Shown piece by piece: positions 8,675-55,700 of a stretch of 64,000 bases of DNA. Both the position numbers and the translations under genes were made by a program. The DNA comes from Eubacteriales bacterium. Its GTDB lineage: Bacteria > Bacillota > Clostridia > Lachnospirales > Lachnospiraceae. The stretch covers positions 1 to 64,000 of the forward strand of contig JAUNGC010000017.1 of the NCBI GenBank assembly GCA_030524745.1. The letters run 5' to 3'. The number at the start of each line of letters is the position of its first letter. Within the stretch, counting starts at the first letter, position 1. The notes beneath the pieces were generated by a model. It did no database searches. It saw only the letters and a program-made list of their open reading frames with translations, and was not told where the DNA came from.

Positions 8675-10396
8675 TCAGTCCATGTATCCGCCCTTCATCG
8701 GGGATACCGCGTGTTCCGAATAAATTTTCAAAACCCCTTTTTTATACTTCGCTTCACGGGGTTTCCATGCCTCTTTCCGCTGCGCCAGAATCCGGTCCAC
8801 TTCCTCTTTCGGCAGTTTTTGCCCTTTTATGCCGACAACTTCCAGCACGCGCCCCGGAATATCAATTTCAATCAGATCGTCTTCCTCCAGCAGCGCGATC
8901 GGACCGCCTTCCGCAGCTTCCGGGGAAACATGCCCGATCGCCGGCCCTTTGGACGCGCCCGAAAATCTTCCGTCCGTAATCAGCGCAATGCTCTTTCCCA
9001 ATTCCGGATCGGAAGAAATCGCCTCGGTGGTATAAAACATTTCCGGCATTCCCGATCCCTTCGGGCCTTCATAGCGGATGATTACTGCATCCCCGGGCTG
9101 AATTTTGTGCTTTAAAACTGCATCGATCGCCTCTTCCTCGCAATCAAAAGGTTTCGCTTTGAGAACCGCCTGAAACATTTCCTTCGGCACGGCGGAATGC
9201 TTCACCACGGAACCTTCCGGCGCAAGATTCCCTTTCAAAATTGCGATCGTGCCGTCCGTACCGATCGCATGGTCAAATTTGCGGATGATATCGGTGCGTT
9301 TCAGCCCCCATGGCTCCAGGTATTTTTCGCATTTTTCATAAAAGCCGTTCTTCTTTAATTCTTCCAGATTCTCACCCAGCGTTTTTCCGGTCACGGTCAT
9401 CGCATCCAGATGCAGCATGGATTTGATTTCTTCCATGACGGCAGGTACGCCGCCCGCATAATAGAAAAACTGCGCCGGCCATTTGCCCGCCGGACGGATG
9501 TCCAGCAGATAATGCGCGCCTCTGTGCATCCTGTCAAAGGTATCCGCATCGATCTCCAGACCGAATTCATGCGCAATCGCAGGAATATGCAGCAGGGAGT
9601 TGGAAGAACCGGAAATCGCCGCATGCACCATGATCGCGTTTTCAAAGGACTCCATCGTCACAATATCGCCGGCTTTTTTCCCTTCCAGCGCCAGTTCGAC
9701 AATGCGTTTTCCCGCATCATAGGCAGCCTTCTTTAACTCCTGGCAGGTCGCCGGCATCAGCGCCGTTCCGGGAAGCATCAGCCCCAGCGCCTCCGCCATA
9801 ATCTGCATCGTGGAAGCGGTACCCATAAAGGAGCAGGCGCCGCAGGAAGGACAGGCATGGTGCTTATAGAAGGTGAACTGCTCTTCCGAAATCTCACCGC
9901 GCTGACACATCGCAGAATACGCGCCAATCTGTTCCAGCGTCAGAAGATCCGGACCCGCGTCCATAACGCCCCCGGTTACCACGATGGAAGGAAGGTTGAG
10001 ACGTCCGATCCCCATCAGACATGCCGGCACAGATTTGTCGCAGCTTGCAATAAATACGCCTCCGTCAAACCCGGTAGAACTTCCGTGAATTTCGATCATG
10101 TTGGCGATCATATCACGATGCGCCAGCGAATAATTGATACCGTCGTGGCCCTGAGCGATGCCGTCGCAAATATCCGTGGTAAAATAACGCGCGCCTCTCC
10201 CCTGCGCATCCCGGATACCTTTCATCGCCTCCGCCACCAGACCGTCCAGATGCGCGCTGCCCGGATGGCTGTCGCCAAATGTGCTCTCCACAATGATCTG
10301 AGGTTTATCCAGATCCTCCACCGTCCAACCCATACCCATTTTCAGCGGATCGTTTTCCGGCGCCAGCGCTCTGACTTTTTGACTGTTGAGTTGCAT
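8675..10396 (-). CDS. IlvD/Edd-family sugar-acid dehydratase (probable gluconate-type)
   Basis: A 573-residue iron-sulfur dehydratase of the dihydroxyacid/phosphogluconate dehydratase superfamily. Cluster cysteines are visible in ASCDKSVPAC and HACPSCGACSFMG, and the C-terminal lyase segment has DGRFSGASKGPAIGHVSPEA. The start at 10396 has AAGGAGG at ideal spacing; the longer open frame has none. The permease, KDG kinase and KDPG aldolase follow on the same strand without ilv genes. It therefore more likely dehydrates an aldonic acid such as gluconate to 2-keto-3-deoxygluconate than makes branched-chain amino acids. The exact sugar acid cannot be read from sequence. Confidence 0.88.
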   Translation of the reverse strand: MQLNSQKVRALAPENDPLKMGMGWTVEDLDKPQIIVESTFGDSHPGSAHLDGLVAEAMKGIRDAQGRGARYFTTDICDGIAQGHDGINYSLAHRDMIANMIEIHGSSTGFDGGVFIASCDKSVPACLMGIGRLNLPSIVVTGGVMDAGPDLLTLEQIGAYSAMCQRGEISEEQFTFYKHHACPSCGACSFMGTASTMQIMAEALGLMLPGTALMPATCQELKKAAYDAGKRIVELALEGKKAGDIVTMESFENAIMVHAAISGSSNSLLHIPAIAHEFGLEIDADTFDRMHRGAHYLLDIRPAGKWPAQFFYYAGGVPAVMEEIKSMLHLDAMTVTGKTLGENLEELKKNGFYEKCEKYLEPWGLKRTDIIRKFDHAIGTDGTIAILKGNLAPEGSVVKHSAVPKEMFQAVLKAKPFDCEEEAIDAVLKHKIQPGDAVIIRYEGPKGSGMPEMFYTTEAISSDPELGKSIALITDGRFSGASKGPAIGHVSPEAAEGGPIALLEEDDLIEIDIPGRVLEVVGIKGQKLPKEEVDRILAQRKEAWKPREAKYKKGVLKIYSEHAVSPMKGGYMD

Positions 10397-14766: not shown

Positions 14767-15255
14767 TTATAACAGCCGTCTTCTCTTTACCTCTTCGATC
14801 AGGGCAGGCTGAATCAGCGGATACGTCCAGTTCTTTGGAAGCCCTTCTAACAGCACAATTTTTTCAATCTCGCTGTGCAGTTCTTCCTCAAAGGTATCAA
14901 TCTCTGCAAAGTACAGCATTCCTAACGATTCTTCTTTTTCATTCTGGTACTCCCTGACGACACAATAAACACAGACCGGACGGATTGAAAACTCAATCGC
15001 TCCTGTTTCCTCTTTCAGTTCCCTTACTGCCGTATCCTCAATCGCTTCATTTTTCTCACGGTGTCCGCCGGGGCATTCGAGCGTGCTCCGCTCTCTGTGC
15101 TTGCAGAAAACCCATTTTCCCTTTGACCGCGAAATAATCACTGCATATTTCAGCCGTTCGTCCTCAGCCGTATCATAAAATTTCACTCCTGTGATATTTC
15201 CCTGCGGGCTGTTTGATCCGGAAGCATATGTTCTTTTCTTATTATCAAGAATCAT
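14767..15255 (-). CDS. Nudix hydrolase
   Basis: A 162-residue hydrolase of nucleoside diphosphates linked to another moiety. The Nudix box is complete: a glycine in GHREKNE, then RELKEETG, giving G-x5-E-x7-REL-x-EE-x-G. MutT-like 8-oxo-dGTP clean-up or another substrate cannot be told apart from sequence. RBS CAGGAGG. It is oriented with the dehydrogenase downstream, which has its own promoter. Confidence 0.9.
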   Translation of the reverse strand: MILDNKKRTYASGSNSPQGNITGVKFYDTAEDERLKYAVIISRSKGKWVFCKHRERSTLECPGGHREKNEAIEDTAVRELKEETGAIEFSIRPVCVYCVVREYQNEKEESLGMLYFAEIDTFEEELHSEIEKIVLLEGLPKNWTYPLIQPALIEEVKRRRLL

Positions 15256-15360
15256 ACGTTATAACCTCCTGTTCCCGATTGCCTGCCTACAGAATACCAC
15301 ACCCCACAGTTCAATGGAAGTTCACTCCGTTCTGAACGCTCAAAAATCTGTTTTTCTTCC

Positions 15361-15389
15361 TTTTCATCCTATGAAATCGCTGCTATAAT
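15361..15389 (+). promoter_or_regulatory. Extended -10 promoter of the AEC gene
   Basis: TGCTATAAT (15381-15389) is an extended -10 with a full TATAAT. The -35 (TTTTCA, 15361-15366) is weak at 17-bp spacing. Confidence 0.55.
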
Positions 15390-53177: not shown

Positions 53178-53840
53178 ATGACCACCAGAAAAATTTATGC
53201 ACAGGAAATGATCCAGCTTGGAGACAGCCTGGAAGAAATGAGCAACATGGCGGAAGCCTCTCTGCGCAATCTTTTCTTTGCGCTTGAAAACAAAGACGAC
53301 GAACTCGCCCGCCGGATCATCCGGGATGACCGCAACATCAATCAGATAGAACGCAATATTGAATCCCAGTGTCTTACCATCATCACAAAGCAGCAGCCGA
53401 TCGCCGGCGATCTGCGCATGATATCCTCCATTTTAAAAGTCGTCACAGACGTGGAGCGCATCGGCGATCACGCATCCGACATCGCGGAGTTAATATTGAG
53501 ACTCAATCACAAACAACTGGAAACCTATTCCGCCCATTTACAGCCGATGATTACCGCCACTCAGGAAATGGTACATGACGCCGTCAGCGCCTTTTTAAAC
53601 GGCGACAAAGAAAAGTCCGCTGTCGTCATCGGATCCGACGATGTGGTGGATGAACTTTTCAATAAGGTAAAAAACGACATTGCCAGCCGCTTAAAAACCG
53701 AAAGCGCCGGCGTGGACGAATGCATTGACGTCCTGATGATCGCCAAATATCTGGAGCGCATCGGCGACCATGCCGTCAACATCTGCGAATGGGAAATTTT
53801 TAAAGAAACCGGTTCCATCCAGGACACGCAGATCTTCTAA
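53178..53840 (+). CDS. phoU: Phosphate uptake regulator PhoU
   Basis: 220 residues, two three-helix PhoU repeats. Metal-binding type motifs are seen twice: VTDVERIGDHASDIAE and YLERIGDHAVNICEW. PhoU links PstB activity to the PhoR/PhoB-type kinase and damps uptake. The gene's last three codons form the base of a giant hairpin that ends the operon. No phoR/phoP pair is in the window. Confidence 0.95.
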   Translation: MTTRKIYAQEMIQLGDSLEEMSNMAEASLRNLFFALENKDDELARRIIRDDRNINQIERNIESQCLTIITKQQPIAGDLRMISSILKVVTDVERIGDHASDIAELILRLNHKQLETYSAHLQPMITATQEMVHDAVSAFLNGDKEKSAVVIGSDDVVDELFNKVKNDIASRLKTESAGVDECIDVLMIAKYLERIGDHAVNICEWEIFKETGSIQDTQIF

Positions 53841-54097
53841 AAACCATGGCCCCGGCGTCGTCCGTCCTTTGGGATGTAGCATGCGCCCCGGCCCCGGAAA
53901 CAGATCCGCCGTTTCAGGACACGCTTTCGCTCGAAAAACGCGTAGCGGCACATAAGGCTGCACAGAACGCGGCCCAAGTGCCGACGCGTTTTTAACGGTC
54001 CGTGAAACGGCGGATTTGTTTCCGGGGCCGGGGCGCATGCTACATCCCAAAGGACGGACGACGCTGGGGCCACGGTCTTTGAAGATCACATTTTTTT
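53831..54097 (+). terminator. Giant foldback: about 85-bp inverted repeat ending in a T run, after phoU
   Basis: Left arm 53831-53916 and right arm 54003-54087 are inverted copies with four substitutions and one inserted base. Two of the substitutions still pair as G-U. Inside the 86-nt spacer is a second inverted repeat (AAAAACGCGT-AG-CGGCAC at 53934-53951 against 53978-53993). TTTTTTT follows three bases after the right arm (54091-54097), so the whole 256-nt palindrome works as an oversized intrinsic terminator for pst-phoU. It is far more GC-rich than its surroundings and may be a nonautonomous inserted element. It fills most of the gene-free stretch 53841-54251. Confidence 0.85.
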
Positions 54098-54251
54098 CGC
54101 AATTTCTCCGCAAATTCATCACAAAATCAAAACAATTCCATCACACTTCTTTTTTATACTCTGATCATAGAAACAAAGAAAACCAGCCGGTCCGGAATTT
54201 TCAAAACATCCGGCCGCTGCAATCATATTTCAGAAAAAAGGAGTGACAGAT

Positions 54252-55700
54252 ATGTCAGAATACAAAAACAACAATTTTGAAAACAAGGATCAGATGTATC
54301 AGTACAGTACGCACAGCAGTGACGGATATGTAGTCACGCCGAACGGTTCGGAGCCGCCCAGACGCAAATCCGGAAAGAAAGGCTCCCGCATCGCCAAAAA
54401 AATAGGTTCTATCGCATTAAGCGCCGTTTTATTCGGCTCAGTGGCGGCAGGCGCCTTTCAGGCAGTAAATTATGCGGCAGGCTACCGGCTCCCTTCCGGC
54501 GCCCAGGATGCAGGCGAAACGGCATCTGCGGCTGCCGCGAATGGTCAAACGGAATCCCAGAGCGTATTACAGACAACTTCCGTTTCCGCTGCCGCGACAG
54601 CTAAAGGCAGTCTGGATGTTTCCGATATCGCTACTGCGGTCATGCCGTCCATTGTTTCGATTACCAATCAATCCGTTCAGGAAGTGCAGAACTATTTCAG
54701 CATGTTCGGCTACGGCAACCGGACACAGCTTCAGGAGACGGAAAGCTGCGGTTCCGGCATCATCATCGGCAAAAATGATACGGAGTTGCTGATCGTCACC
54801 AACTATCACGTGGTGGAAAATGCGGATACCCTTTCCGCCTGCTTCATCGATAATCAGGCTTATGAAGCCAATATAAAAGGCTATGATTCCGATAATGACC
54901 TGGCGGTTATCGCCATCCCTCTGGAGAATATTTCCGCGGACTCCATGTCCCAGATCAAAATAGCCTCCATTGGTGATTCCGATGCGCTGCAGGTGGGTCA
55001 GCAGGTTGTCGCCATCGGCAACGCACTGGGATACGGTCAATCCGTCACCACAGGTATCGTCAGCGCTACGAACCGCTCCATTACCACCACCAGCCAGATA
55101 AACACTTCCACCGACAGCGAGGATGTTCCTACCTACATCCAGACAGACGCCGCGATCAATCCCGGCAACAGCGGCGGCGCGCTGGTGAACATGAACGGTG
55201 AGGTCATCGGCATCAATTCGGCCAAAATGTCCAGCACTGAAGTGGAAGGCATGGGTTACGCCATTCCGATTTCCAGAGTTTCCGACATCATTGAAACGCT
55301 GATGAATGAAACCACAAGGACAAAGGTTGCGGAATCCGACCAGTCAAGCCTTGGCATCTCCGGCATCACCGTGAACGATAGCGTAAGCCAGACCTACGGA
55401 ATTCCCACAGGCGTTTATATCGCGGAAGTGACTGCCGGCGGCGGCGCGGAAGCGGCCGGACTGGTCAAGGGCGAAGTTATCACTAAATTCGACGGTAAAA
55501 CAATTTCTGACATCGAACAGTTAAAAGACCTTCTGCAATATTACAAGGCCGGTGAAACTGTGGAGGTCACTGTGAAAGTGCCCGGCGCCGGAGAATATAC
55601 GGAAAGAACAGTATCTGTGACTTTGGGCCATGCTGCTGCGGCATCCGAACAGACACAGTCCGCAGATTCCGTCTATCCCGATTGGAGCAAAACCCGGTAA
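54252..55700 (+). CDS. htrA: HtrA/DegP-like membrane-anchored serine protease with PDZ domain
   Basis: 482 residues. A polar N-terminus of about 50 residues precedes one membrane helix (near 50-72, IGSIALSAVLFGSVAAGAF), then a low-complexity linker. The trypsin-like domain has the triad His (TNYHVVEN), Asp (DSDNDLAVI) and Ser (NPGNSGGAL). A C-terminal PDZ domain starts near LGISGITV. It degrades misfolded proteins at the outer face of the membrane. Start 54252 has AAAGGAG; a GTG nine bases earlier is an inferior alternative. It lies after the phoU foldback and has a TATACT box upstream with no clear -35. Confidence 0.94.
   Translation: MSEYKNNNFENKDQMYQYSTHSSDGYVVTPNGSEPPRRKSGKKGSRIAKKIGSIALSAVLFGSVAAGAFQAVNYAAGYRLPSGAQDAGETASAAAANGQTESQSVLQTTSVSAAATAKGSLDVSDIATAVMPSIVSITNQSVQEVQNYFSMFGYGNRTQLQETESCGSGIIIGKNDTELLIVTNYHVVENADTLSACFIDNQAYEANIKGYDSDNDLAVIAIPLENISADSMSQIKIASIGDSDALQVGQQVVAIGNALGYGQSVTTGIVSATNRSITTTSQINTSTDSEDVPTYIQTDAAINPGNSGGALVNMNGEVIGINSAKMSSTEVEGMGYAIPISRVSDIIETLMNETTRTKVAESDQSSLGISGITVNDSVSQTYGIPTGVYIAEVTAGGGAEAAGLVKGEVITKFDGKTISDIEQLKDLLQYYKAGETVEVTVKVPGAGEYTERTVSVTLGHAAAASEQTQSADSVYPDWSKTR

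Follow-up and report, generated by a model that had tools for sequence, protein, structure and literature searches.

The pst-phoU operon of a Lachnospiraceae bacterium ends in an exceptionally long inverted repeat, and the question raised by this locus is whether such a hairpin serves the operon as a transcription terminator or is a mobile element that came to lie there, and how its two arms have stayed matched. The window, by which we mean the whole stretch analysed, comprises positions 1 to 64,000 of contig JAUNGC010000017.1.

A giant hairpin behind phoU

From the Pfam domains in their translations, we read the genes upstream of the hairpin as pstS, pstC, pstA, pstB and phoU. The features at the end of the operon are as follows:

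53178..53840, + strand: phoU, end of the pst operon (Pfam PhoU, E 2.5e-48)
53831..53916, + strand: left arm of the giant hairpin, locus-specific, defined by pairing with the right arm
53917..54001, + strand: conserved branched tip of 85 nt (core of family A), a dispersed repeat with a consensus structure
54002..54087, + strand: right arm of the giant hairpin, defined by pairing and absent from the orthologous gap of congener G005
54091..54097, + strand: run of seven T (T7), probably inherited from an ordinary terminator, with the same T-run in G005
54243..55700, + strand: HtrA-type serine protease gene 3' of the hairpin (Pfam Trypsin_2 and PDZ), syntenic in G005

When the arms are aligned from the GG/CC of the tip towards their outer ends, the hairpin at 53831-54087 has 83 Watson-Crick pairs, 2 G.T, 2 A.C and 2 gap positions, while separate inverted-repeat detection delimited it as 53839-53916/54003-54080 (78 nt, 95%). 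An earlier note on this DNA had described an inverted repeat with four substitutions, two of them retaining G-U pairing, and one indel, which agrees with our alignment, including the two G.T. The note was also right that the repeat begins in the last codons of phoU, as these and the stop codon at 53840 (53831-53840) form the outermost 10 nt of the left arm, and that seven T residues follow, at 54091-54097. The minimum free energy of the hairpin is -217 kcal/mol (z -22.4), and none of 200 shuffles was equally good. When the window was scanned for stems, the phoU hairpin came first with 85 pairs and the runner-up had 42; since the best stems in 20 dinucleotide-shuffled controls had 16-38 pairs, the phoU hairpin lies far beyond chance. 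At its outer end the right arm reads GGTCTTTGAAGATC, which nearly repeats the phoU tail GATCTTCTAAAAACC as inverted complement and does not occur in G005. In our reading, this end arose by outward templated extension, although a pre-existing local stem could also account for it.

A dispersed repeat in the Lachnospiraceae

Searching the host genome (G000; 3.57 Mb, a 63-contig draft) with 53831-54097 returned 18 further places at E<=5.5e-6, counted besides the query itself and its own reverse. Nearly all of these matches fall within query positions 71-188, which correspond to the tip, and folding places most host tip copies on a long stem of their own. The nested inner repeat that the earlier note had perceived is thus real, being a branched tip common to many other loci, and the search that it had proposed for the host genome and its relatives reveals many copies behind unrelated genes, the palindrome not being confined to phoU. 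At three host places (L016, L018 and L021, the last a weaker match), apparently just half of the tip is present, and in L016 this half forms a different long stem with neighbouring sequence.

Among 98 genomes (the host and 97 relatives), a search with a G000 copy detected the tip in five others, namely 4 of 12 congeners and one genome of another genus, and did not find it in the remaining 8 congeners. In the genome from the other genus (G049), L035, L041, L047 and L052 are nearly identical A+T-rich copies, and L035 and L052 each have a pair of tips in facing orientation, about 280 nt apart. A covariance model built from 30 tips matched 114 of 299 Lachnospiraceae genomes, sampled one per genus, at E<=1e-3, many with at least 15 candidates scored. 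A DNA-pattern scan yielded at least 119 stretches, many in named Lachnospiraceae, along with some in other phyla that match by chance; Eisenbergiella, Robinsoniella, Mediterraneibacter and Ruminococcus turbiniformis are among the pattern matches listed. Three pattern matches on viral contigs have neither the family tip nor a stem and look like chance, as do the listed matches outside the Lachnospiraceae. Phage and plasmid collections searched with the single copy L007 returned no match, and no Rfam 15 family reached its gathering score against the element in the window or the 18 loci, where matches were all sub-threshold. We found no description of this repeat family in the literature consulted, and candidate-RNA collections such as PMC8040213 may contain it unnamed. 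Apparently, the family is widespread in the Lachnospiraceae and uncatalogued; the novelty lies in the family and in its matched, locus-specific arms.

It is scarcely credible that the palindrome is an artefact of assembly or amplification, that is, a chimeric inverted copy. The window genome is a 63-contig draft, several carriers are MAGs and some contigs seem to end at repeats, all of which would suit such an origin, but the arms are imperfect and orthologous copies occur in different assemblies. The artefact reading is further weakened because the isolate Eisenbergiella tayi DSM 26961 also carries copies, with arms of about 105 and 122 nt.

Empty sites, element ends and the search for a mover

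In the congener G005, whose phoU is 80% identical, the orthologous phoU-htrA gap is without the repeat, as a mobile element predicts, and holds an ordinary 15-pair terminator followed by the same T-run (ACATTTTTTTCGCAATTTC in the window, ACACTTTTTTCGCAATTTC in G005). A second site, filled in G003 by copy L046, is empty in G004, G008, G009 and G010, in which the flanking convergent genes are 18-76 nt apart. Both of these genes end in KQKQAAQ at the C-terminus next to L046; we dropped this as proof of arm-to-arm copying, since a single insertion that struck the ends of both adjoining genes would account for it as well.

Element ends were recognised in a Robinsoniella MAG (G098, the source of L173), where elements bounded by inverted GTAACNGTTCAGCC carry the tip. 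This end motif occurs 282 times in the MAG, compared with 0 for the reversed control. We found 11 end pairs at 9 loci, spanning 194-1032 nt (four of exactly 196 nt) and all holding core A by motif. Perfect 8-bp target duplications flank 3 of the 11 (L351, L376, L378), two more have duplications within one mismatch and six have none. The terminal inverted repeats expected of a MITE are therefore present as GTAACNGTTCAGCC in the Robinsoniella MAG, the single MAG from which all target duplications come, while the window copy has no recognisable ends. Many of the listed GTAACNGTTCAGCC places in L349-L378 lie less than 100 nt from the end of a contig, which suggests that the assembly breaks at these repeats.

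Together, the dispersed copies, the empty site in G005 and the 8-bp duplications in the Robinsoniella MAG support the earlier proposal of a foldback or MITE-like element at the site of a former, smaller terminator. The proposal had specified a GATCTTC...GAAGATC stem; a smaller terminator did exist, judging from G005, but the terminator there differs from that stem, and the tail of phoU, copied in inverted orientation, may be the source of GAAGATC.

An autonomous partner was not found among the three enzyme families searched (Y1, IS66 and reverse transcriptase). Repeats of the REP/REPIN type have a GTAG-like foot and an imperfect hairpin. In the tip, a GTAG-like foot likewise precedes an imperfect hairpin, and inverted tip pairs occur in some genomes, so one could picture a REP/REPIN-like single-stranded DNA repeat moved by a Y1 (RAYT/TnpA) transposase. 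We consider this very improbable: a Y1 transposase was not found in four of six carriers (G002, G003, G004 and G049, drafts of which two are 58% and 68% complete), G000 has only a fragment, although G007 has five matches, and the target duplications of the Robinsoniella MAG speak against it as well. IS66, which we take to be suggested as the mover by the GTAA end and the 8-bp duplication, fits no better: complete or partial copies of its transposase occur in G000, G007 and E. tayi, but there is none in the Robinsoniella MAG or in four further carriers. Reverse transcriptases were rejected because the three loci that encode them have no hairpins.

Evolution of the arms

Among 17 copies in G000, left-arm identity falls outward from the tip through 0.63, 0.51, 0.33 and 0.30 per 10-nt bin, chance being 0.25, so that similarity between copies reaches background about 20-30 nt from the tip. 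The arms are thus largely locus-specific, even though each pair is complementary. Several copies have a common CGGCAG-CTGTGAACC motif about 40-55 nt out, and the G+C content of the arms is 0.62 compared with 0.50 in the flanks (60 copies). Across 90 trimmed stems, 4417 Watson-Crick pairs stand against 380 mismatches and 188 gap positions; the mismatches include 130 G.T/T.G and 104 A.C/C.A (p 0.10), and in the 31 copies that could be oriented by transcription G.U occurs 40 times and A.C 28 times (p 0.18).

How the arms change was followed in seven orthologous copy pairs, five of which compare the same two MAGs. After 37 columns were set aside for gaps, 391 stem pairs were unchanged, 66 had one side changed and 29 had both sides changed, 21 keeping the pairing (13 by transitions, 8 by transversions) and 8 losing it. 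With 124 of 972 sites changed, independence would predict, by our own arithmetic, about 2.6 pairing-keeping and 5.3 pairing-losing double changes, meaning that the former are about 8-fold above chance, transversions included. All 21 occur in four of the pairs; there are none in L059/L100, L096/L150 (first locus) and L152/L240, and because two of these three are the least diverged, any correction lags. Single changes produced 24 G.T and 18 A.C mismatches. By the same kind of arithmetic, the rate of change in orthologous arms is only about 1.3 times that of their flanks, which does not explain unrelated arms among copies whose tips are about 90% identical. In L059 (G002), the right flank runs on as 35-nt tandem repeats resembling the outer arm.

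The covariation check suggested by the earlier note therefore has a divided outcome, in that compensatory double changes are in excess, whereas the preference for G-U over A-C is not significant. As G.T barely exceeds A.C, the arms speak at most weakly for RNA pairing as what drives their change. The co-changes could stem from selection on pairing; their pattern agrees with a process at the DNA level, for instance template switching, by which arms are documented to become homogenised (PMC8794818, PMC8604942).

Placement and the question of termination

Placement was analysed for 77 giant hairpins (66 of family A and 11 of a second family, B, described below) of at least 170 nt with neighbours at most 600 nt away, others and duplicates being dropped; gene positions came from our own simple codon-usage gene caller rather than from annotation. 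Between co-directional genes lie 48 of these hairpins, between convergent genes 15 and between divergent genes 14. The distance from hairpin base to stop codon has a median of 12 nt for co-directional and 0 nt for convergent genes, with many hairpins overlapping gene ends, compared with about 103 nt to a start codon. The arms fill the space to the gene ends and mostly spare promoter regions. Among the 25 of 100 Pfam families listed for the 49 neighbour genes of the A and B hairpins in G000 are diverse housekeeping families and no transposase.

The earlier note had interpreted the phoU hairpin as a giant terminator, and selection for RNA pairing in an intrinsic terminator, or in a structure protecting the 3' end of the mRNA, would indeed account for a GC-rich stem with T7 directly after phoU, for an ordinary terminator at the same place in G005, for hairpin bases that hug stop codons and for the slight surplus of G.U over A.C in the arms. 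As a general account of the family, this interpretation is not supported: T-rich tails lie 3' of only 3 of 31 co-directional copies, 14 of the 77 hairpins sit between divergent genes, the same tip adjoins unrelated genes, the G.U surplus is not significant either overall or on the transcribed strand, and the T-run is already there in G005, which lacks the element. We therefore regard it as unlikely. Because T7 matches the T-run of the congener, termination has probably been kept at the phoU locus as a by-product.

The conserved tip

In the window, the consensus structure of the tip comprises the following elements:

53917..54001, + strand: whole tip, with the closing stem GGAC/GTCC
53921-53932, + strand: small hairpin ACGCTTTCGCTC
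53934-53943/53984-53993 and 53946-53951/53978-53983, + strand: second stem; the tip also has an apical stem-loop

Both sides have changed at 17 of the 26 pairs of this structure, and a hand count in + orientation gives 22 G.U and 6 A.C cells, although the aligned sequences are related and the count is no clean test. On the opposite strand, the loop of the tiny hairpin ACGCTNNCGCTC reads GNRA. ACACGCTNNCGCTC is invariant, again with the GNRA loop on the other strand, an invariance that is partly built in because the search pattern demanded part of the motif. Given the G.U count, an RNA role for the tip is conceivable, and the covariation and the invariant motif would also suit a structured RNA that is functional and conserved, its copies being maintained by selection. 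This we likewise think improbable, in view of the high copy number with near-identical paralogues, the empty sites and the congeners in which the tip was not found. Moreover, between orthologous copies the tip is about 92% identical and the flanks about 90% (own arithmetic), which gives no sign of constraint on the tip at the level of the single copy.

Long palindromes elsewhere in the genome

Within 797,718 scanned bases of G000 (22% of the genome) there are 21 stems of at least 35 pairs, ranging from 35 to 211. Core A is recognisable by motif in 6 of them and L217 is an A variant; family B accounts for 11, and 3 are of other kinds. In 382,700 bases of G007, the scan produced 5 entries, which fall on 4 places and all belong to family A. 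The scanned samples of G005, G006 and G010 contained neither A nor B; other stems numbered two in G005 and one in G010. At the end of a G005 contig (L255:7118-7259) lies a perfect 71-bp palindrome that is probably an assembly foldback.

Family B has stems of 96-211 pairs and the tip ACTGTCTGAGC...GCGAGTTTGC, with an imperfect conserved inner palindrome inside locus-specific outer arms in most copies. Its members are:

L206:11537-12066: family B
L209:10730-11058: family B
L214:2451-2697 and 15030-15363: family B
L216:17242-17579: family B
L218:2110-2450: family B
L219:1662-2055: family B
L221:19465-19813: family B
L272:1104-1532 and 8991-9340: family B
L279:9538-9949: family B

Across the 98 genomes, family B matched in G000 and as a 26-nt piece in G004, and seven stretches tested against Rfam had no match. 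Long palindromes are generally thought to be unstable in cells with SbcCD. Loss of SbcD was rejected as the reason for their tolerance here, since SbcD matched in 13 of 14 genomes, G000 among them, with no match in G006. The matches in G002 (C172:688-1683) and G003 (C6:13830-14714) are split by an in-frame stretch outside the model, a split that the other congeners with an SbcD match do not have.

Origin and maintenance of the palindromes

The feature behind phoU is, we think with some confidence, an old member of a MITE-type family of palindromic elements that are non-autonomous, high in copy number and homogenised in their arms, probably by template switching during replication. Such an element would have been moved by a DDE-type transposase. 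During replication, the nascent strand would fold back and copy one arm from the other, and this template switching would keep the arms of each copy matched while they drift and could lengthen the palindrome outward into flanking sequence as far as the gene ends. At the phoU locus, the element would have displaced the stem of the pst-phoU terminator and left the T-run in place, and it would probably still terminate transcription as a by-product. Several observations count against this explanation: three of the seven orthologous pairs have no pairing-keeping double change, the three enzyme families searched yielded no autonomous partner, the target duplications stem from one MAG, and in family B the outer arms are perfect although the conserved inner palindrome that they enclose is imperfect, a contrast that is hard to explain by continuous homogenisation.

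A bolder idea, which we entertain as possible rather than probable, is that the folded shape and not the arm sequence is copied and kept, the tip being recognised and the arms being rewritten as mirror images by template switching, so that they grow to the gene ends and overwrite terminal codons. If true, such a shape-copying element would offer a natural, genome-wide system in which to watch palindrome growth in cells that retain SbcD. In any case, more than a third of the genera sampled from this major gut family carry the repeat, which sits at gene 3' ends and apparently causes breaks in draft assemblies. Since 21 stems were found in 22% of a genome that has sbcD, the origin and upkeep of long palindromes can be tested by simple strain comparison. 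There is also a warning here, in that covariation in bacterial stems can arise without selection on RNA.

Comparison with known systems

Bacterial MITEs such as CIR, ERIC, QMITE and RUP (review PMC10969869) resemble family A, which is short, non-coding, high in copy number, mostly intergenic and equipped with inverted ends, with target duplications in some Robinsoniella members. Family A differs from MITEs in being nearly all one long palindrome with a conserved branched tip, in its copy-specific arms of up to 100 bp or more and in that no parent transposon was found. The changes of both arms together, transversions included, are like the template-switch mutations described in PMC8794818 and PMC8604942, which there concern the stems of RNA genes and short inverted repeats, whereas here the stems are of 50-140 bp and belong to a repeat family. 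With REP/REPIN repeats and their RAYT, family A has the imperfect hairpin, the GTAG-like foot and, in some genomes, the paired inverted copies in common, but it has no co-distributed Y1 transposase, its stems are much longer and target duplications occur. Finally, the window locus resembles an intrinsic terminator in having a stem and then a T-run, and it departs from one in its 85 pairs, just as most other tested copies do in having no T-run.
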